Made by a program: the position numbers and the translations under genes | The notes under the pieces: generated by a model | Database searches by the model: none | Seen by the model: only the letters and a program-made list of their open reading frames with translations | Told to the model about the DNA's origin: nothing | NCBI GenBank assembly: GCA_016928525.1 | Contig: JAFGKO010000140.1 | Coordinates: forward strand, 1 to 9,794 | DNA from: Anaerolineales bacterium | GTDB taxonomy: Bacteria; Chloroflexota; Anaerolineae; Anaerolineales; Villigracilaceae | DNA: 9,794 nt | Reading direction: 5' to 3' | In this document: piece by piece, positions 81 through 9,794 of the stretch | How positions within the stretch are numbered: the stretch's first letter is position 1 | Layout: the number at the start of each line of letters is the position of its first letter

Positions 81-198
81 GTAAGAAATGTGAAAACGTC
101 TGCAATAAGATTATAATGATCGAGCCATCATTCAACCCATTTCTTAAGGGAAAATAATGGTACCACGAATATGGCCACGCTTTTTTTTGCTTGATCAA

Positions 199-212
199 TG
201 GCAACGTTGCCA
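199..212. promoter_or_regulatory. Perfect 14-bp palindrome, likely LacI-family operator
   Basis: TGGCAACGTTGCCA is a perfect palindrome with the central CG and AACGTT core typical of LacI/GalR-family operators. It lies 23 bp before the ATG of the LacI-family gene and downstream of both promoter candidates, where a bound repressor would act as a roadblock. This suggests autorepression. The 8-bp palindrome TTGATCAA (191-198) abuts it. No second copy of the full palindrome was found in the window by eye, so control of the transporter operon by the same site is not shown. Confidence 0.5.
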
Positions 213-235
213 AACTGTCAGCAAGAGACAACCCT

Positions 236-1264
236 ATGGCTAAGACCGATCCTACTATAACAATCATTGACGTGGCTCGTGAAGCGAGTGTTTCCAACTC
301 TACAGTGTCCCGGGTTGTGAACAACAGCGAACGGGTTAAACCTGAAACCCGTGAGAAAGTCCTCAGTGCGATGGCACGGCTGGGTTATGTCGCCAATCAG
401 CAGGCGCGGAGCCTGCGCGGAGGCCGGTCGCGAATTGTTGGCTTGGTTGTGCATGAGGTTGGCAATCCATACATTGGGGAGATCATTCGTGGCATTGATG
501 AGGAATTAGCCGCCAACAACTATAGACTGATGCTCTACACCACCCGCCGCCACAAAACACGTGAGTCTACGTTTGTCGCAGAGATCTTGGGTGGCATGGC
601 TGACGGTCTGCTCGTGCTGTTACCGCGCGATCTTGGTTCGTATGTCAAAAAGCTCAAACAGCAGCGATTCCCTTTCGTTCTCATTGATTACCCCGGCGAT
701 GAAAATGGGTTTTCATCGGTCATAGCCACAAACTGGCAAGGGGCATACGACGCTACAGCCTATTTGATCGGGCTTGGTCATACACGCATCGGGTTTATCA
801 CCGGGTTAATGGAAGTCTCTGCTGCTGTCAAGCGTCTTGAAGGGTACAAAGATGCTCTTTCCAACCATAACATCGAATATGATGCAAGTCTGGTCTACGA
901 AGGCGATTTTTTCCAACCGGATGGGTTTGCTGGCGCGGAGTACTTGCTGGATTTACCCGAGCGACCCACGGCTATTTTTTCCTCCAATGATGTATCCGCT
1001 TTTGGTGCAATCGACGCGATTCGCAATCGCGGGTTGCGTATTCCCGACGACATATCAGTAATAGGCTTTGATGACATCCCACAGGCTGAATACGGCATTC
1101 CTAGACTGACGACGGTTCGACAACCTTTAGCATATATGGGGCGGGTTGGCATTCAAATGCTATTGCGGCGCATTAACGAACCTGATATTCCCACCGAACA
1201 ACTTGTGGTTTCCACAGAATTAATCGTGCGCGACTCTTGCCGCCCCATTTTTCCTGATGATTAG
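236..1264 (+). CDS. LacI/GalR-family transcriptional regulator
   Basis: This 342-aa protein has the standard LacI-family layout and length. The N-terminal helix-turn-helix covers about residues 9-30, with recognition segment SNSTVSRVVNN (20-30). The hinge helix lies around QARSLR (56-61), and a periplasmic-binding-protein-like sugar-sensing domain starts near residue 66 (RIVGLVVHEVGNPY). Late family signatures are present: PTAIFSSND (244-252) and ISVIGFDD (273-280). The ATG at 236 is preferred over an in-frame TTG at 191 because the family begins a few residues before the TIIDVA motif, and the longer form would translate through the operator palindrome. The ribosome site is weak (AAGAGA, 223-228). 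Placed just before a sugar ABC operon and near a GH43 enzyme, it probably represses those genes until a sugar ligand binds. The ligand cannot be read from sequence. Confidence 0.93.
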   Translation: MAKTDPTITIIDVAREASVSNSTVSRVVNNSERVKPETREKVLSAMARLGYVANQQARSLRGGRSRIVGLVVHEVGNPYIGEIIRGIDEELAANNYRLMLYTTRRHKTRESTFVAEILGGMADGLLVLLPRDLGSYVKKLKQQRFPFVLIDYPGDENGFSSVIATNWQGAYDATAYLIGLGHTRIGFITGLMEVSAAVKRLEGYKDALSNHNIEYDASLVYEGDFFQPDGFAGAEYLLDLPERPTAIFSSNDVSAFGAIDAIRNRGLRIPDDISVIGFDDIPQAEYGIPRLTTVRQPLAYMGRVGIQMLLRRINEPDIPTEQLVVSTELIVRDSCRPIFPDD

Positions 1265-1524: not shown

Positions 1525-2853
1525 ATGAAAAAGACGCTGAGTCGTCGCGATTTTCTGAAACTCGCTGGCGCTACAACCGCCGGGCTGGCCATCAGCCAGG
1601 TCGCTCCGCTTACCCCCGCTATGGCATTGGTTGCACGCCGGGATGCTACGCCGATCCTGATGTGGTTCCAGGCTGAAAACCATGCGCCGGAATATGATCG
1701 CCGCAAAGCAGAATTGGAAGAAAAATTCGGCGTGGCGATCACCTATGAACTTCTGGGCCGCGAAGCCATGACCGAGAAGTTCCCGGCCACCTTGATGGCG
1801 GGCGAGGGTTTCCCGGACATCATCGAGCAGAACGCCGATGACATCATCAAATTCCTCAAGGGCGACGATAGAGCGATCCCGTTCATCGCCCTCAACGAAA
1901 CCATTGACAATGGCCCCTACGCTAACGATGTTCTGGAAAGCCGCTGGGCACGTTACACCAAAGACGGCAACCGGTACGGTGCTCCCCACGACGTCCATCC
2001 CATCGTCATGCTCTACCACGAAGAAGCCTGGGCCGAATTCGGTATCGATATGGAAACTGTTGAGACCTGGGAAGACTTCCTGGCCGCTTGTCAAGTCGTT
2101 GGCGAAACCGCCGAAATGGAAGACGGTCGCCCGCGCTATGCGTACATGGACTGCCTGGGCTGCGCCGGGTTACTGACGCTTATGCTTCAGAACGGCGTGT
2201 GGTGGCACAATGAAGCCGGTGATATGCAGCTCGGCGAGCCTGGGTTCCGCGCTGCTATCGAGACCTTGCTGATGCTTGATCCCTACCGGGTTGATATCGA
2301 CTGGGGCAACCAGGTCGCGATGTTCAAGGACGGTCAGTACCTGACAGCCCTTACCCCGGATTGGCTCTACGGCATCCATAAACAGGGCACCGCCGAGGAC
2401 GCCGAATGGATGGCGGACTCACCGATCCGCATCCGTCAGATGCCGAGCGGCCCGGCCACCGGTAGCTGGGGCGGCACCGCAGCCTCGGTCACCAAACCGT
2501 CCAAGGTTGCCAACGCGGCCCTCGAACTGCTGATGTACCTGTACTTCGACAATACCGAAGGTCAGCTTGCCCAGCGCTTCGTCGACATCGGCATCCTGCC
2601 GCCTGTCGTCAGCGCCTGGGACGATCCGATCTTTAACGCAGAAGAACCCTATACGGGTGGTCAGGTTGCCGGTCAGGCGTTCCAGGAAGCCGCCAAGAAC
2701 CTGCCGGCTTACTATGAAAGCTGGAAGACCTCGTTGATCGCCGCCGCCTGGGGCGAGCAAGCCACCCTGCTCTTCGCGGACGAAATCAGCCTTGACGAAG
2801 CGATCGATGCCGCTGTCAAACAGGCCGAAGCGGATATCGAACGCCAGGCATAA
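1525..2853 (+). CDS. Tat-exported sugar ABC transporter substrate-binding protein (family 1)
   Basis: This 442-aa extracellular solute-binding protein captures a carbohydrate outside the membrane and delivers it to the two permeases encoded downstream. The N-terminus is a Tat signal: MKKTLSRRDFLK with consensus SRRDFLK at residues 6-12, a hydrophobic stretch around 13-30, and an AMA cleavage motif at 32-34. There is no lipobox cysteine, so it is not a classical lipoprotein. The mature part starts with PILMWFQAEN and resembles MalE/UgpB-type family-1 binding proteins, for example YHEEAWAEFGIDMETVETWEDF and the GSWGG segment. GGAG at 1513-1516 sits 8 nt before the ATG. Codon use looks more GC-rich than in the regulator and may reflect high expression. 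The attenuator hairpin just after the stop fits higher output of this subunit than of the permeases. Substrate inferred from the nearby GH43 only: pentose oligosaccharides. Confidence 0.9.
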   Translation: MKKTLSRRDFLKLAGATTAGLAISQVAPLTPAMALVARRDATPILMWFQAENHAPEYDRRKAELEEKFGVAITYELLGREAMTEKFPATLMAGEGFPDIIEQNADDIIKFLKGDDRAIPFIALNETIDNGPYANDVLESRWARYTKDGNRYGAPHDVHPIVMLYHEEAWAEFGIDMETVETWEDFLAACQVVGETAEMEDGRPRYAYMDCLGCAGLLTLMLQNGVWWHNEAGDMQLGEPGFRAAIETLLMLDPYRVDIDWGNQVAMFKDGQYLTALTPDWLYGIHKQGTAEDAEWMADSPIRIRQMPSGPATGSWGGTAASVTKPSKVANAALELLMYLYFDNTEGQLAQRFVDIGILPPVVSAWDDPIFNAEEPYTGGQVAGQAFQEAAKNLPAYYESWKTSLIAAAWGEQATLLFADEISLDEAIDAAVKQAEADIERQA

Positions 2854-3020: not shown

Positions 3021-3090
3021 CCCAAGACATATGCGCCCGTTCGCGTCTACGCCCTCATCCCCCCACGAGAGTTGAGAGGTATTGTTTTCT

Positions 3091-4038
3091 ATGGAAGCAC
3101 AAATCATTTTGACGCCAGTTCGACGAGTAGGCCATTTCTTCTCTAAACAAAAGAACTGGATGCCATACGTTTTTGTCGCGCCGTTTTTCATCACCTTCGC
3201 CGTGTTCCAACTCTATCCCATGATCCGCTCGATCCAGATGAGCTTTCAAGAGATCTCTGGTTTCTGGAACCCGGTATGGGAGGATGTCGGCTTCGATCAC
3301 TACAAAGAGATTATCAGCAACGACGAGCGTTTCCGCACTGCGCTGATGAACTTCGTGCAGTATTCGAGTATCTCGCTTGTTACACAGGTGCCAGCCGGTT
3401 TTTTCCTGGCGATGTTATTGGCGTCGCCATTTTTGCGCGGACGGCGATTTTTCCGCGTGGCCCATTTTTTACCGTCGGTATTGCCGGGATTGACCATCGG
3501 CGTCCTCGGTTATTGGGCGTTTAGCGAGTCGCGCGGCATCGCGAATGAGCTTCAGATGGCGTTGGGAGGGGAGAAGCGGATTCAGTTCATGGCCCTGCCT
3601 CGTTACATCATGCCAATGTTGACATCGATGGCTTTCTGGCAGTGGACGGGCAACCACGCGGTCTTCTTCCTAGCGGGCATCACCTCTATCGACCGCACAT
3701 TGCTAGAAGCAGCGACCATTGACGGTGCCGGGTACTTTGGGCGAATCCGTTTCGTCATATTGCCGCTGCTCAAACCGGTCATGGCTTTTGTCACCATCAA
3801 CATCGCCATCGGGTCGTTGATGATGTACGACGTACCCATCTTGTTGTTCGCCGATGGCACAACTGGCGGCGGTCCGGGTGGCAGCGGTTGGTTCTTTATC
3901 CCCTACATCAAGTGGCAGGCGTTCGACCAGTTCCGTATGGGCTATGCCACTGCTATTGGCTGGCTGGTCTTTTTCATCGCCCTCATCATTGCGATTGTCC
4001 AGCTTCGGCTCTATAAATTCGGGGAGGGTGAATCATGA
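3091..4038 (+). CDS. Sugar ABC transporter permease, MalF/UgpA-like
   Basis: This 315-aa inner-membrane subunit forms half of the sugar channel. Six hydrophobic segments are visible at about residues 25-45, 91-111, 122-144, 173-197, 222-245 and 284-305. The cytoplasmic EAA loop that docks the ATPase reads EAATIDGAG from residue 206 and ends in ILP at 223-225, matching the MalF-type consensus EAA---G---------I-LP. The ATG at 3091 is preferred over an in-frame TTG at 3082, because AGAGGT (3075-3080) is 10 nt from the ATG and only 1 nt from the TTG. The 237-nt gap from the binding-protein gene is long and highly structured. The stop codon overlaps the start of the next permease. Family is confident; the transported sugar is not determined. 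Confidence 0.93.
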   Translation: MEAQIILTPVRRVGHFFSKQKNWMPYVFVAPFFITFAVFQLYPMIRSIQMSFQEISGFWNPVWEDVGFDHYKEIISNDERFRTALMNFVQYSSISLVTQVPAGFFLAMLLASPFLRGRRFFRVAHFLPSVLPGLTIGVLGYWAFSESRGIANELQMALGGEKRIQFMALPRYIMPMLTSMAFWQWTGNHAVFFLAGITSIDRTLLEAATIDGAGYFGRIRFVILPLLKPVMAFVTINIAIGSLMMYDVPILLFADGTTGGGPGGSGWFFIPYIKWQAFDQFRMGYATAIGWLVFFIALIIAIVQLRLYKFGEGES

Positions 4039-4922
4039 CTGTTAGAGACCAAGCACAGATCCGCGGTGATCGTACACCGATCCAACGTATGCTTTCGTCT
4101 GCAAACCGCAGTACTATACTGACGACAGCATTCGCGATTGTCTTCACCATCATATTCATGTGGCCCGCTTTCACATTGATTGCACAGAGTCTCAACAGCC
4201 TCGACACCTACATGGACCCTTTGATCCCCTGGCCGAAAGAATTCAGTCTGAAGTTGTATCAAAAAGTATTCACCGAATACGAGTTGCACCATCATATTCG
4301 GAACACAGTGTATGTGGTACTGATGAGCACCGCACTGGGCACTTTTGCTTCGGCGTTGAGCGGCTACGCGCTGGCGAAACTGAACTTTCCCGGACGACAA
4401 GCGTTGTTCATCGTGGTGATCGCCTTTATGCTGCTTCCACTGGAAACGATGATGGTACCGCGCTTCATCGTTCTGAAGGACCTCAACCTCATCAACTCCT
4501 ACTGGGGTTTGATTTTGCCAGCAGTGGGCGGTAACGCTTTCGGCATTTTTTTGATGCGCCAATTCATGCTACAGATTCCCAACGAAATGTTGGACGCCGG
4601 GCGCGTCGATGGATGCAGCGAGTTTGGCCTGTTCTGGCGGTTGGTGCTGCCCAACATGAAGGGCCCCCTCCTGGTGCTGGTCACGTTCTCCGTGCGCGGT
4701 GGTTGGAACGCTTTCCTATGGCCGCAGATCGTCGTCACCGAGGAGAACAAACAGCTTATTATGCCCGCCATCGCCCGCATCAATCAGCTTACGGTGGCTG
4801 ATCCATATGCACGCCATGTTGTGCTGGCAGCGGCGTTGTTGAGCGCATTGGTGCCATTGGCGTTTTATATGTATTCACAGAAGTTCTTCGTCTCGGCGCT
4901 GGCCGGATCGATCAAAGGCTAA
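4035..4922 (+). CDS. Sugar ABC transporter permease, MalG/UgpE-like
   Basis: This 295-aa inner-membrane protein is the second half of the channel. Hydrophobic segments lie at about residues 28-50, 90-112, 122-142, 153-175, 205-228 and 261-281. The EAA loop is EMLDAGRVDGCSEFG from residue 184, ending LVLP at 203-206. The C-terminal QKFFVSALAGSIKG is typical of MalG-type permeases. Its ATG overlaps the TGA of the upstream permease (ATGA, 4035-4038), with GGGGAGGG at 4021-4028, so the pair is translationally coupled. No ATP-binding subunit follows, so the importer probably uses a shared MsmK/UgpC-type ATPase encoded elsewhere, which is common in this transporter family. Confidence 0.93.
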   Translation: MTVRDQAQIRGDRTPIQRMLSSANRSTILTTAFAIVFTIIFMWPAFTLIAQSLNSLDTYMDPLIPWPKEFSLKLYQKVFTEYELHHHIRNTVYVVLMSTALGTFASALSGYALAKLNFPGRQALFIVVIAFMLLPLETMMVPRFIVLKDLNLINSYWGLILPAVGGNAFGIFLMRQFMLQIPNEMLDAGRVDGCSEFGLFWRLVLPNMKGPLLVLVTFSVRGGWNAFLWPQIVVTEENKQLIMPAIARINQLTVADPYARHVVLAAALLSALVPLAFYMYSQKFFVSALAGSIKG

Positions 4923-5109
4923 GGTTGGTGAGTTTGTCATTCACCGATTGGTGAGCACGACTGCCCAGAGCCAAAGCGGTCCAATAATTAGGGGTGACAA
5001 ATACTAACGTGCCTTATAAGCGGCACTAGGTCGTCCGTGTCCACCGGCCAGCAAATCGGCGTTGAGCCGGTGGGGCGCCTTATCGGCGCGAGTGGCGATG
5101 AAATAAGTT

Positions 5110-5139
5110 TTGATCATCCAAAACCGGATAATGTATTAG
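5110..5139 (+). promoter_or_regulatory. Weak candidate promoter for the chaperonin-propeller operon
   Basis: TTGATC (5110-5115, 4 of 6 matches) is separated by 18 bp from TATTAG (5134-5139, 4 of 6). GATAAT (5127-5132) and TATAGT (5162-5167) are better -10 hexamers but lack a correctly spaced -35 box. A promoter somewhere between 5090 and 5170 is plausible; which hexamer pair is used cannot be decided by eye. Confidence 0.22.
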
Positions 5140-5176
5140 CTTACTGTCGAGCTCGGATAGGTATAGTACAGGTTGA

Positions 5177-5191
5177 GCTGTTCAAAACAGC
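5177..5191 (+). promoter_or_regulatory. Small hairpin in the 5' leader of the chaperonin-like gene
   Basis: GCTGTT (5177-5182) and AACAGC (5186-5191) form a perfect 6-bp stem around a CAA loop, 26 nt before the start codon. A T6 run (5202-5207) follows after 10 nt, too far for a standard terminator. It may influence leader stability or translation. Confidence 0.3.
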
Positions 5192-5217
5192 ATGACTTAG
5201 ATTTTTTGAGGAAGCTT

Positions 5218-6849
5218 ATGACCAAGAATAACCATCAGCGTCAAGTCCCGGGAGTGGTGTTTCAGCCACAAGTTCGACAGGGAATAGGAAATGGGATCGA
5301 CAGCCTCGTTGATGCCATTGCTCCCACACTCGGACCGTTACCACGCATGGTCGCCAACGAGAAAATCAATCGTAGTAAACGTCCGGAATTACTCGATAAT
5401 GGGGCTGTTATCGCCCGCCGTATCTTGATGCTGCCCAATCGGACCGATGATGTCGGCGCAATGTACCTGCGACAGATGCTCTGGCGAGTAAGTGAACTCG
5501 TGGGTGATGGTACCGCAACCGCCGCCGTCTTGTTTCGGTCAATTTTTAACCACGGGGTTCGCTACCTTGTCGCCGGGGGCAATGCAATGCGCCTGCGGCG
5601 CTATCTTGAAAGCGCAGTACAACCGCTCCTTGATGCGCTGGATGAGATGGCAGTCAGTATCGACACACAGGAACAAATCGAAGGACTGGCACTGTCCGTA
5701 TGCCACGATGGTCCCGTTGCCAGCGCGCTGGCGCAGGCGTTCGCAACAATTGGGGTATATGGACGTCTGGAAATCCGCTCCGGACATGGGCGTGAAATCG
5801 AGCAAGAGTATTTTGAAGGCACTTATTGGGATCATGGCCTGGTGAAGCCCGCTGGCATCTCGCCGCAGCAGGAAATCGCGCTGGCCGATGCGCCAATACT
5901 GGTCACGGATTTTGACGTAGAGAATCCACACCAATTGATTCCTCTCTTTGTATTGGCGGTGCGTGCGGGTATCAAGCAACTCATTGTGTTGGTGGCGAAC
6001 ATATCCGATGCCGCGCTGACAGCCCTGACGACGCCGAAAAATAAGGAGCGGGTGGAATTAATCTTCGTCAAAGCGCCTATTTCGCTCAAATCTAGCTCCC
6101 GCGATGAATTGAACGATCTGGCGCTTTTGGTCGGGGCCAACCCCTTCATTGAAAAAGGGGGATTGCCCCTGGAAAACATTCAGTTAAGTGATCTTGGCTA
6201 TGCACGGCGTTTTTGGGCCAATAAAACATCTTTCGGGGTAATTGGCGGACAGGGTGATTCATGCCAACTGCGACAGCATATCACCCGACTCAAGCAACTG
6301 CACTGGAGTGCGGATGATGGTGAGACTCGCCAACAGCTATACAACCGCCTGAACAAGCTAATTAGCGGGACGGCTATCCTACAAATAGGGGCACTGTCAA
6401 CCATTGAGGTGGAAAATCGGCGGGACACGGCTCAAAATACAGCGGAAACCGTCAGAACCGCGTTGAGTGAAGGGGTTGTTCCCGGCGGCGGGGTCGCCTT
6501 ATTAAGATGCATCGCAGATATGCAGCACAAAGCCGGGCAGACTCATGATGCCGATGAACGCGCGGCCTATCACCTACTCCAACAGGCGCTTGAAGCGCCG
6601 TTCCGAGCAATTTTACAGAATGCGGGTTATGCGCCGGATTTTGTCCTGGCACGGTTGAGTCAGTACCCCGAAAATTATGGTTTTGATGTCATACGTGGTG
6701 AGGCCGTGGATATGATTCAGTCGGGAATTGCCGACTCGGTATCAGTTATAAAAACGGCACTGCGTAGTGCGGTATATAGTGCGGCACTGGCCTTGACAAT
6801 TGATACCGTTGTTCACCGTGCTAATCCCCCGGAGGCAGTACAGCCATGA
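5218..6849 (+). CDS. Divergent GroEL/Cpn60-like chaperonin paralogue with altered ATPase residues
   Basis: This 543-aa protein aligns with group I chaperonins along its length: PTLGP (36-40), GDGTATA (96-102), an apical-like region about 195-385, EGVVPGGGVAL (418-428) and a closing equatorial segment near SGIADSVSVIKTAL (502-515). D97 matches GroEL D87. Gapless by-eye alignment places N61 at GroEL D52 and N407 at GroEL D398, both needed for normal ATP hydrolysis. The apical region is poorly conserved, and the GGM tail is absent. Start: ATG 5218 has GAGGAAG at 5208-5214; an in-frame TTG at 5173 lies ahead of the leader hairpin and is less likely. The TGA overlaps the ATG of the propeller gene. 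There is no groES or CIRCE nearby, so this is unlikely to be the housekeeping GroEL. Family assignment is strong; role as a slow or non-cycling holdase is inference. Confidence 0.85.
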   Translation: MTKNNHQRQVPGVVFQPQVRQGIGNGIDSLVDAIAPTLGPLPRMVANEKINRSKRPELLDNGAVIARRILMLPNRTDDVGAMYLRQMLWRVSELVGDGTATAAVLFRSIFNHGVRYLVAGGNAMRLRRYLESAVQPLLDALDEMAVSIDTQEQIEGLALSVCHDGPVASALAQAFATIGVYGRLEIRSGHGREIEQEYFEGTYWDHGLVKPAGISPQQEIALADAPILVTDFDVENPHQLIPLFVLAVRAGIKQLIVLVANISDAALTALTTPKNKERVELIFVKAPISLKSSSRDELNDLALLVGANPFIEKGGLPLENIQLSDLGYARRFWANKTSFGVIGGQGDSCQLRQHITRLKQLHWSADDGETRQQLYNRLNKLISGTAILQIGALSTIEVENRRDTAQNTAETVRTALSEGVVPGGGVALLRCIADMQHKAGQTHDADERAAYHLLQQALEAPFRAILQNAGYAPDFVLARLSQYPENYGFDVIRGEAVDMIQSGIADSVSVIKTALRSAVYSAALALTIDTVVHRANPPEAVQP

Positions 6850-7775
6850 TGGACCATACCGTTCCAACAGATAACGAACAGATCGCTAATCTCGTCTACG
6901 ATCTGGCCGCTTGTCCACCATCAGCATCTAGTGCGAACCTTACCTGTCTTGCCGCACGGATGTCCGGTTTATATCGTTCTGATGATGCAGGCCATACCTG
7001 GCAGTTTATGTATGATGCCCTCAATTTGCCTGAACCATTGCCCACGTTTGCTGTAGCGGCAGCGCATGATTCACAGGGACGGATGATTGTGTTGGCGGGT
7101 ATTTCAGGGGGAATTTTGCGCTCTGATGATGGGGGACATACGTGGGAAAAAGTTTTCCTGCCAACACCCCCAGCAACAATCACAGACCTACTGTTGTCCC
7201 CTAATTATGCGAAAGATGGCCTGGTGTTTGCTGGTACGCTTGATGATGGTCTGTACTACTCTTCTGACCTGGGCCTGACATGGCAGCACTGCAATTTCGG
7301 TCTGTTGGATTATCACGTGTTCTGTGTAACAGCATCGCCGAAGTTCTCGGAGAACAAAACGTTATTTGTCGGCACCCAGAGTGGGATTTTCAAAAAAACT
7401 GGTGAAGGATGTTCCTGGCTTGAAGTTGACATGCCGATGGGCTATACGGATGTCCTGAGTATTGCAGTATCACCTAATGGGGTACTGTATGTTGGCACAG
7501 AGGAGCATGGCCTCTGGCAAACGCCGGACAATGGAGTGACTTGGAGACAGCTTGCTGAAGATAGCTTAAACGCAGCCATCGACAAAATTGTTCTTATGTC
7601 AGATAAACTCCTTGTCCTGACACAAGGACAGCTATTTGAGTCCAAAGATGACGGCGCGACATGGAGTCTATGGCGAAAAGATCATTTCTCCGGTTCACAA
7701 ATAACAGCTATCTATGTGTCTCTGGTATCAATCTTAGTTGGAGATATGGCTGGTCAAATTATTATCACAGAGTGA
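6846..7775 (+). CDS. Asp-box (BNR) repeat beta-propeller protein, likely cytoplasmic
   Basis: This 309-aa protein contains about six Asp-box turns of the S-x-D-x-G-x-T-W type: RSDDAGHTW (44-52), RSDDGGHTW (92-100), SSDLGLTW (139-146), a degenerate KKTGEGCSW (183-191), TPDNGVTW (226-233) and SKDDGATW (266-273). Spacing of about 40-48 residues fits one per propeller blade, as in Ycf48/HCF136 and Vps10-type folds. No signal peptide or membrane segment is visible, and no sialidase arginine triad is evident, so no enzymatic activity is assigned. GGAGG at 6831-6835 lies inside the chaperonin gene, and ATG 6846 overlaps its TGA; a second ATG follows at 6849. The coupling suggests the propeller is a partner or client of the chaperonin-like protein. 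It looks more AT-rich than the transporter genes. Confidence 0.85.
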   Translation: MMDHTVPTDNEQIANLVYDLAACPPSASSANLTCLAARMSGLYRSDDAGHTWQFMYDALNLPEPLPTFAVAAAHDSQGRMIVLAGISGGILRSDDGGHTWEKVFLPTPPATITDLLLSPNYAKDGLVFAGTLDDGLYYSSDLGLTWQHCNFGLLDYHVFCVTASPKFSENKTLFVGTQSGIFKKTGEGCSWLEVDMPMGYTDVLSIAVSPNGVLYVGTEEHGLWQTPDNGVTWRQLAEDSLNAAIDKIVLMSDKLLVLTQGQLFESKDDGATWSLWRKDHFSGSQITAIYVSLVSILVGDMAGQIIITE

Positions 7776-7874
7776 CAGAATCCAGCTTGTCTTCAACGTA
7801 AATCCTGGGTACTTGTCGGCTACATCATTCGGACAACATTATCTTGACAGAAAACAAGGGAGTAGAAATTAACA
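7776..7874 (+). promoter_or_regulatory. Short intergenic gap with a weak promoter candidate
   Basis: TTGTCG (7813-7818) and CATTAT (7837-7842), 18 bp apart, each match 4 of 6 consensus bases, so the DUF362 gene could have its own promoter. AAGGGAG (7856-7862) is a long 12 nt before the ATG at 7875. No hairpin terminator was seen after the propeller gene, so read-through is equally possible. Confidence 0.2.
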
Positions 7875-8972
7875 ATGACAAATAAGAAACAGAACTTTTC
7901 GCTATCACGGCGGCATTTTTTGCATGTGGCCGGTGCCCTGACCGGTGGCTTTGTCATTCCTCAATGGATTGCAAGGCCTGCTCAGAGTGCAGCATCTTTT
8001 GAAGTCGCTTTGACCCAGGCTTCAACGTATGAGTATGATGAACTTCGAAACACTATCTTCGCCATGCTAGACAGTCTTGGCGGACTGAGTGATGTCGTCC
8101 GTCCGGGCGATAAGGTTGCCATCAAAACCAACTTGACCGGCGGTACCTGGAGTATGCAAGATCTGCCTGTTCCCGCCGCTGAATATACGTTGACTCATCC
8201 TGACGTCGTGCGTGCCTTAGGGGAAGCTGTGCGCGATGCGGGGGCCAGTGAATTGTATCTGGTTGAAGCGATTTGGGATCCACAATCGTGGAAAAGTTCG
8301 GGGTATGCGGATGTCGCCAAAGACCTCGACGCACAACTTATCAACTTGAATGAGCCCGCTCCGTACGATAATTTTATTGAACTGCCCGTGGGCGAGCAAG
8401 GGCTGATTTACCAGGCGTTCACGGTAAACGGAATACTGGCCGACGTGGACGTGTTTATGTCCGCCGCGAAGATGAAATGCCACTCTGGTTGTGGGGTTAC
8501 ACTCTCGATGAAAAATCTGGTTGGTATGGTGCCTATTTCGAAATATAAAATCAAGGCTGATGATAATCGCCGTTCTGCTTTGCATGGCACAGGCACCGAC
8601 TACCAAATGCGCTTGCCACGAGTAGTTGTTGATCTCAACCAAGCGCGTTCCATCGACTTTGCCTTAATCGACGGGATACGCACTGCTCAAGCAGGTGAAG
8701 GTCCCTGGGTGCCGAGCATCAGTCAGATCACGCCCAATGTGCTGATTGCTGGCAAGAATCCAGTCGCCGTGGATGCGGTTGCCACGGCGGTGATGGACTT
8801 CAACCCTGAAGGTGAATCGCTAGCGGAAACCCCATTCGACCATTGTGAAAATCACCTGCAACTCGCCGCAAATATCGGACTTGGTTCAAATAGCCTTGAT
8901 GACATTGAAATTCTGGGGATGACTCTGGACAGCGCCCGTATACCATTTCAGGCATCTGTGGCGTTGGGATAG
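7875..8972 (+). CDS. Tat-exported DUF362 domain protein
   Basis: This 365-aa protein belongs to the DUF362 family (PF04015), whose biochemical role is not well settled. The N-terminus is a Tat signal with SRRHFL at residues 11-16, a hydrophobic stretch about 17-30 and an AQSAA cleavage region at 36-40. Family marks follow: VAIKTNLT (81-88, cf. IKPNL), KMKCHSGCGVTLSMKNLVG (199-217, the KxKxH...KN motif), IDGIRTAQAGEGP (265-277) and IAGKNPVAVDAVA (291-303). Cysteines C202 and C206 sit inside the KxKxH motif, with another at C324; no ferredoxin-type cluster domain is attached. Tat export suggests folding, possibly with a cofactor, before transport. It follows the propeller gene by 99 nt and precedes the GH43 gene. 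Its link to either is unknown. Confidence 0.85.
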   Translation: MTNKKQNFSLSRRHFLHVAGALTGGFVIPQWIARPAQSAASFEVALTQASTYEYDELRNTIFAMLDSLGGLSDVVRPGDKVAIKTNLTGGTWSMQDLPVPAAEYTLTHPDVVRALGEAVRDAGASELYLVEAIWDPQSWKSSGYADVAKDLDAQLINLNEPAPYDNFIELPVGEQGLIYQAFTVNGILADVDVFMSAAKMKCHSGCGVTLSMKNLVGMVPISKYKIKADDNRRSALHGTGTDYQMRLPRVVVDLNQARSIDFALIDGIRTAQAGEGPWVPSISQITPNVLIAGKNPVAVDAVATAVMDFNPEGESLAETPFDHCENHLQLAANIGLGSNSLDDIEILGMTLDSARIPFQASVALG

Positions 8973-9162
8973 TATTGGCATATTCAAAGTCAACTACAAG
9001 TGGAACCAGATGCCCATTATACTGGAGGTCTAGAAGGAACTTGTTCAGACATCAGCCAAAAACGTGAGAGTAAGTATCCCTGTATACATGATTCTTCCGC
9101 TTTCAGTGAGAAGCTCAAACTGTCTCCCCTTTGAGTCCCTTCACCAACTAAAGGAAAATGAC

Positions 9163-9794
9163 GTGACATTTCGAAACCCAATCTTGCCCGGCTTTTACCC
9201 CGATCCATCCGTATGTCGGGTCGGTGAAGATTATTACCTGGTGACCTCCACTTTTGAATATTTCCCTGGGCTGCCGATATTCCACAGCCGCGATCTCGTT
9301 CATTGGCAGCAACTGGGACACGTCATCGACCGCCCCACGCAACTTAGTCTGGATGGTCTGAAGTATTCAAGAGGCTTGTATGCACCCACTATCCGGTATT
9401 ATGATGGCACGTTTTATGTCATCAACACGTTGGTGCCCAACTTCGAAAATCCGACGCCACCCTATGGTAATTTCATCGTGACGGCAACCAATCCGGCAGG
9501 CCCCTGGTCTGATCCGTATTGGCTCGACGATGCACCGGGGATCGACCCCTCGTTGCTGTTTGATGATGATGGGCGTGTCTGGTATACCGGCAACCGCGTT
9601 CCTCCGGCGGGCGAAAGTTACTCTGGACATCGCGAAATCTGGTTGCAAGAACTCGATTTGAACTCCATGCAACTTATCGGGGAAAAATACGCCTTATGGG
9701 ATGGTGCGGCCAAATTTGCCATTCATCCCGAAGCGCCCCACCTGTACCACATCGGAGACACGTACTACCTGATGATCGCCGAAGGGGGCACCCA
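9163..9794 (+). CDS. GH43 glycoside hydrolase, beta-xylosidase/arabinofuranosidase-like (3' end outside window)
   Basis: The first 210 codons of a GH43 five-bladed-propeller hydrolase are present; the gene runs off the window. The opening NPILPGFYPDPS (5-16), VGEDYYLVTSTFEYFPG (20-36) and IFHSRDLVHW (39-48) are typical of the beta-xylosidase branch. Candidate catalytic residues are base D14 (YPDPS), pKa-tuning D128 (GIDPS) and acid E190 (HPEAPH), close to D14, D127 and E186 of Selenomonas XynB-type enzymes. Start: GTG 9163 has AAAGGA (9150-9155) at 7 nt and puts the base at residue 14, as in that family. An in-frame ATG at 9088 would add 25 residues but lacks a ribosome site. No signal peptide is seen, so it probably acts in the cytoplasm on imported xylo- or arabino-oligosaccharides, fitting the upstream transporter. 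Confidence 0.9.
   Translation, partial: MTFRNPILPGFYPDPSVCRVGEDYYLVTSTFEYFPGLPIFHSRDLVHWQQLGHVIDRPTQLSLDGLKYSRGLYAPTIRYYDGTFYVINTLVPNFENPTPPYGNFIVTATNPAGPWSDPYWLDDAPGIDPSLLFDDDGRVWYTGNRVPPAGESYSGHREIWLQELDLNSMQLIGEKYALWDGAAKFAIHPEAPHLYHIGDTYYLMIAEGGT

Follow-up and report, generated by a model that had tools for sequence, protein, structure and literature searches.

A chaperonin branch in Chloroflexota that has lost the catalytic Asp398, encoded beside a propeller gene and, at many loci, importer genes

The window analyzed here, a 9,794-nucleotide stretch of Anaerolineales bacterium contig JAFGKO010000140.1 (assembly GCA_016928525.1), encodes a GroEL-like protein between the genes of a sugar importer and a propeller gene. 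A sequence-only reading had proposed that two of its three catalytic aspartates are asparagine, and that the protein would bind ATP, barely hydrolyze it, and act as a long-lived cage, scaffold or holdase. Most work on whether chaperonins need ATP hydrolysis, as distinct from mere binding, has used laboratory mutants. The locus raises the question of whether nature has made a comparable protein and, if so, what it might do in this setting. The gene and the residues that bear on this are as follows.

5208..5211, + strand: GAGG, read from the sequence as the probable ribosome-binding site of the chaperonin-like gene, ending 6 nt before the ATG
5218..6849, + strand: chaperonin-like protein (543 aa), catalytic Asp398 replaced
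5398..5400, + strand: N61, at the position of GroEL D52 (codon AAT, alignment)
5506..5508, + strand: D97, at the position of GroEL D87, kept (codon GAT, alignment; in GDGT)
5515..5517, + strand: A100, at the position of GroEL T90 (alignment; Ala in 195/199 rows)
6436..6438, + strand: N407, at the position of GroEL D398 (codon AAT, alignment; Arg in 171/200 rows)
6733..6735, + strand: D506, at the position of GroEL D495 (alignment; kept in 199/199 rows)

The translated frame has no internal stop. Its product matches Pfam PF00118 (Cpn60_TCP1) over residues 31-533 (133.1 bits, gathering score 34.3), full length and across the equatorial, intermediate and apical domains of the chaperonin fold. The score against the NCBIfam GroEL equivalog TIGR02348 (312.6 bits) is below the cut-off of 582.1, and every NCBIfam cut-off listed exceeds the protein's score. 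Among solved structures, its sequence comes closest to T. thermophilus Cpn60 and other GroELs, and identity to Cpn60 structures is about 30%. The GGM tail is absent from the window protein. At the residues that we take to form the GroES and substrate groove of GroEL (Y199, Y203, F204, L234, L237, L259, V263 and V264) it reads L, A, G, I, F, L, T and T.

MAFFT alignment with E. coli GroEL pairs K51, D52, D87 and D398 with D60, N61, D97 and N407, and HMMER alignment to solved Cpn60 chains gives the same register. The placement of asparagines at positions 52 and 398, with their AAT codons, and the retention of D97 are therefore borne out. A caveat had been that D60 might itself occupy the D52 position. 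By sequence, D60 instead falls at position 51, because G62 and R68, which are invariant in a 120-row alignment, fix the register. In addition, the residues at 51 and 52 are D51-D52 (L135, L140, L152) or N51-D52 (L134, L137-L139) in stem relatives with D52 intact.

Relatives were collected in two ways. A protein search scored 7997 candidates, of which 2711 matched; the best 120 of these 2711 (window included) were aligned, the others being 44-51% identical to the window protein. A scan of species genomes with the single window protein as query gave no match; the 120-row profile confirmed 157 of 222 stretches. The locus counts given below rest on the best 80 of the 157, which are mostly Anaerolineae, Anaerolineales or Chloroflexi records. 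Together the 120 proteins and 80 loci make 200 rows, 197 of them distinct (window included). A C-terminal proline was considered as a mark of the clade and set aside as weak (24/120 proteins, 47/79 loci).

Aspartate is absent at position 398 from all 200 rows, which have R (171), E (13), Q (6), H (3), Y (2), A (2), N (2) or K (1). Asparagine is thus not fixed at both columns across the clade: N398 occurs in two rows (window included), and the N/N pair is found in the window alone (1/200). Loss of D398 holds clade-wide, but the key change is to arginine, and the loss of D52 is looser (D 97, N 43, S 33, K 15 and E 8 in 198 rows). Judged from the alignment, the catalytic residue has been lost throughout the clade, and the two asparagines of the window are one local form of that loss. 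Most of the pocket is kept. D87 is present in 198/199 rows and D495 in 199/199, and the GDG and GGG motifs are nearly fixed; position 90, T in GroEL, is Ala in 195/199. Over 24 nucleotide-pocket columns the commonest residue has a mean frequency of 0.87, as against 0.65 at the remaining equatorial positions. Position 479 is D in 197/199 rows, but it is not special to the divergent clade, because some canonical GroEL genes of the carrier genomes share it. These proteins resemble GroEL/Hsp60 in their full-length fold, their pocket (TLGP, GDG, GGG, D495) and their nearest solved structures, which are Cpn60s. They differ in the loss of D398, the T90 to Ala change, an unstable D52, a partly polar groove and the lack of a groES neighbor among the loci searched. 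Thus, as far as sequences can tell, a branch of group I chaperonins in Chloroflexota keeps the fold and most nucleotide-binding residues and has lost catalytic D398.

T90 of GroEL is a ligand of K+. From its loss, together with the replacement of D398 by Arg or Asn, ATP binding without turnover is predicted, and a hydrolysis defect in the clade is likely. With the pocket conserved and D398 lost throughout, the earlier suggestion of ATP bound and barely hydrolyzed would be the natural prediction. The same catalytic residue is reportedly lost in the GroEL D52A/D398A laboratory mutant. It is also lost in D398A, which binds ATP normally, has 3% of the steady-state ATPase and, with GroES, still encapsulates and folds proteins (PMC3326522). 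Unlike in both mutants, the change in the clade is natural, clade-wide and mostly a charge reversal to Arg, and the clade has also lost T90 and has no GroES gene alongside. The encapsulation by D398A leaves the proposed cage conceivable; a long-lived cage of the GroEL type is doubtful, given the missing GroES neighbor and the partly polar groove (large hydrophobics at a mean of 5.7 of 8 groove positions in the 200 rows versus 7.9 of 8 in 22 canonical rows).

What such a protein might serve is suggested by the genes around it.

191..1264, + strand: LacI-type regulator (NCBIfam RbsR/CytR-like models, best 244 bits, cut-off 382; first possible start, the true one may be later)
1525..2853, + strand: probable solute-binding protein with a twin-arginine signal, MKKTLSRRDFLKLAG (Pfam TAT_signal above cut-off, TIGR01409, Tat test positive)
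3082..4038, + strand: ABC importer permease 1 (PF00528, 54.5 bits)
4035..4922, + strand: ABC importer permease 2 (PF00528, 54 bits)
6846..7775, + strand: cytosolic seven-bladed BNR/Asp-box propeller, its ATG overlapping the chaperonin-like stop (ATGA, 4 nt)
7875..8972, + strand: DUF362 protein with a twin-arginine-like N-terminus (LSRRHFLHVAG, read from the translation; PF04015, 117.6 bits)

The two ORFs flanking the chaperonin-like gene thus encode a permease and the propeller, and groES is not beside it. A gap of 295 nt separates permease 2 from the chaperonin-like gene, with no further + strand ORF of at least 60 aa listed between them, and co-transcription across it is only putative. A promoter and terminator scan of 4700-9200 gave values within about one standard deviation of shuffles, and no tRNA was found in the window. 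The DUF362 gene stands directly after the propeller gene. A glycosyl hydrolase family 43 gene (9064-9792, 223.7 bits) runs off the window end, and fits a carbohydrate-use island. A plasmid or mobile origin was rejected: tblastn matches on plasmids were below 60% identity, the five shown being about 33% identical and one of them annotated groL.

The window's propeller scores 28.8 bits against Pfam PSII_BNR (cut-off 27) and 29.2 bits against NCBIfam Ycf48 (cut-off 326). Among the best 80 of 157 places, 55 of 75 loci have a same-strand propeller gene no more than 600 nt downstream, and for 50 of these the distance is at most 30 nt. Conversely, 22 propeller-profile matches of at least 238 bits were found in 20 genomes; 21 adjoin a divergent chaperonin gene, and one is 11 kb off on the same contig. 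No propeller, permease or binding-protein match was found near canonical groEL at 22 loci (21 distinct genes), where the flanks searched reached no further than about 1.4 kb, except at one locus with 1.8 kb upstream. Ycf48/HCF136 is likewise a seven-bladed BNR-type propeller, and serves photosystem II assembly. Unlike it, the window propeller has no obvious signal peptide and is encoded with a chaperonin, and a strongly hydrophobic N-terminus was seen in none of 46 examined propellers of 265-330 aa. Neither a propeller nor a membrane-protein partner (see below) was found in 9/75 loci, one of which has the propeller inverted.

An ABC permease lies at most 600 nt upstream in 33 of 72 loci among the best 80 of 157. 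The 39 loci with none count against reading the transporter as the client, and the varied genes at permease-less loci (12 upstream genes scanned, with some glycosidases, a sulfatase, SMC or DUF2330) indicate that such a client would not be universal. The product of 1525..2853 has no Pfam SBP domain; it is identified as a solute-binding protein because of its gene position and its match (89 bits) to L065:965-2275, itself SBP_bac_1. At 26 of the 33 permease loci (gene >300 aa; the other 7 had insufficient room or no ORF), the gene before the permeases, chosen by place alone, is Tat-positive in 24. The two failures are L066, which is without its N-terminus, and L048, which reads SRHEF. The Tat test is likewise positive for the window's own binding protein and for six that are transcribed divergently. 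By comparison, a control set of 70 other SBP_bac_1 proteins, drawn from four of the genomes, has 12 Tat-positives (3 of the 30 best-scoring; 9 of 40 hand-picked down the list, L207 among them being an apparent false positive). The Tat test was a regular expression plus hydropathy, and part of the linked proteins belong to a family other than that of the SBP_bac_1 controls. A linked set chosen by similarity gave 18/20 (Fisher p 3e-9), which is biased in that the queries carried Tat signals, and which overstates independence because the linked Tat proteins form few related families, perhaps six to eight independent cases.

The idea that the chaperonin stands in for a missing ABC ATPase was rejected. 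The MalK OB domain is above cut-off in 20/20 genomes (1-6 matches per genome at E <= 0.001), so the importers can share one MalK-type ATPase.

We tentatively favor an ATP-binding, non-cycling, GroES-independent chaperonin whose dedicated task, shared with the propeller, would be the biogenesis of sugar-binding proteins exported by Tat; the holder role for these proteins derives solely from gene order and the Tat bias. A cycling ATPase would have been converted into a static, ATP-gated holder. The protein would assemble into rings and bind ATP-Mg through D87, helix M would swing over the pocket, and the ring would close without turnover, residue 398 (Arg; Asn in the window) replacing the catalytic base. 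The propeller may dock clients or substitute for the lid, and before export the pair would hold and check either the Tat-exported binding protein of the operon or the importer under assembly. The retained pocket, the lost catalytic residue, the propeller neighbor and the sugar-import operons together suggest a chaperonin turned dedicated scaffold, with the propeller as candidate replacement partner for GroES. We know of no earlier chaperonin tied to sugar-import operons and Tat export, and no description of such a clade was found in the literature searched (subscription papers and preprints fell outside that search).

The propeller could instead be the client of a dedicated folding chaperonin, for which slow or single-turnover encapsulation would be enough, as with CCT, which folds WD40 proteins. 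The near one-to-one pairing of the two genes fits this, as does the propeller gene's place immediately after the chaperonin-like gene, which it touches or overlaps in 19/55 loci. However, the K52/E398 subclade has a membrane-protein gene in the propeller's place (11/75 loci; 11 of the 12 E398 loci), both hydrolysis and the groove should have been retained in a folding machine, and the sugar operon and Tat bias would be left without a reason. We consider this rather unlikely. Downstream genes of this membrane-protein family were noted at L037, L047, L050, L052, L055, L058, L062, L063, L064, L067, L072, L120 and L128. Their proteins are about 280-320 aa and ABC-2-permease-like by eye, and the two members scanned gave no Pfam match.

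An ATPase that is still active, with a rearranged site in which D60 (position 51) or another acid serves as base, is unlikely. Position 51 is D in 183/198 rows and position 397 is often Glu, as such a site might require. However, D51 already occurs in D398-intact stem relatives (L135, L140, L152), and so is not compensatory. Moreover, the attacking water of GroEL is seen between D52 and D398 (PMC10723157), a site that Arg398 would face.

A more specific version of the favored static holder is distinctly unlikely. Arg398 would pair with acidic 51/52 (or K52 with E398, swapped) in a salt bridge at the water site, locking an ATP-gated static assembly without a hydrolytic cycle. The propeller would be its lid or adaptor, its seven blades symmetry-matched to the seven-membered ring in place of GroES. 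The pairs at 52 and 398 in 198 rows are D-R (95), N-R (37), S-R (28), E-R (8), K-E (13) and others; both are K/R in none, and K52 is present in 13/13 E398 rows. Column 52 ranks 20th of 540 in mutual information with 398. The co-variation is thus indistinct from background and the charge swap is essentially that of one subclade; a salt bridge between 52 and 398 could stand where GroEL has its catalytic water.

Ordinary chaperonins are present in the same cells. A search of 20 carrier genomes gave canonical GroEL in 18, the exceptions G008 and G020 being drafts and maybe incomplete, and GroES in 19/20. There are 24 GroES (Cpn10) matches in total; 20 adjoin canonical groEL and none adjoins a divergent gene. 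D52, D87 and T90 are intact in each of the 21 distinct canonical genes fetched (22 rows, since L132 and L091 are pieces of one gene), and D398 in 20 of them, compared with 0 of 200 rows of the divergent set. The other, L092 of genome G003, has Tyr at 398 (RVEYALS versus RVEDALS in its sister L084), which may be real or a sequencing error, and is otherwise an ordinary GroEL. In 151 genomes sampled from the phylum, the bit scores of canonical and divergent forms overlap and give no clean prevalence.

Hetero-oligomeric Cpn60 is known from chloroplasts, and canonical GroEL in 18/20 genomes makes it conceivable that divergent chains join its rings and tune its cycle for particular clients. However, at about 30% identity and behind a long stem branch, the interfaces have probably diverged, and G010, G011 and G012 each carry three or four different divergent paralogues; we regard such mixed rings as decidedly improbable. 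The nearest known idea is the chlamydial GroEL2/GroEL3 pair (PMC1892554), natural paralogues with differences in their ATP and GroES regions, which stand beside ordinary GroEL1, as the divergent paralogue here stands alongside ordinary GroEL. The window protein belongs to a separate family, scoring 96.1 and 137 bits against NF038370 and NF038369 (cut-offs 600). No propeller or transporter link of GroEL2/GroEL3 is known to us.

In a 59-row tree the divergent genes form one branch (100/100), reached by a long stem. Decay of a paralogue under relaxed selection, with D398 and D52 lost and no function left, would suit the long branches and the variable position 52, but is highly improbable with frames open across many genomes, a pocket more conserved than the rest, Arg398 in 171/200 rows and conserved neighbors. 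Near the base are L137-L139, L140, L152, L135 and L134, with D52, D87, T90 and D398 intact. L134, whose placing is weakly supported (90/57), already has a propeller gene downstream, as has L136, which keeps D398 and has T90A (branch 98/93; rows beyond 100/93). The pairing with the propeller therefore probably came before the loss of D398. No propeller match was found at the other six of the eight basal D398-keeping loci (L135, L137-L140, L152). The propellers of L134 (1855-3840) and L136 (4524-6542) have 661 and 672 aa, compared with about 300 aa in the main clade, and 11 Asp-box motifs each (regular expression); apparently they are tandem double propellers. L136 is followed by L141-L143, where 398 is A or S, next by L117, L127 and L115 with K, Q and R, and finally by the main clade with mostly R. 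Of 20 next-best places fetched, 16 have Asp at 398 and four do not (L133, L141, L142, L143). With these intermediates, from fully catalytic to charge-reversed within one phylum, the clade would be a natural experiment on the need for hydrolysis. In a tree from which columns 52 and 398 were omitted, the nearest row to the window is D52/K398 (support 0.80), and residue 398 varies among R, Q, K and N within a 12-row set (0.999). The genes of six loci (L010, L031, L033, L035, L056, L079) with records titled Acidimicrobiia, Bacteroidetes, Falkowbacteria, Actinomycetota or Trueperaceae nest among Chloroflexota in the trees, indicating mis-binning or transfer.
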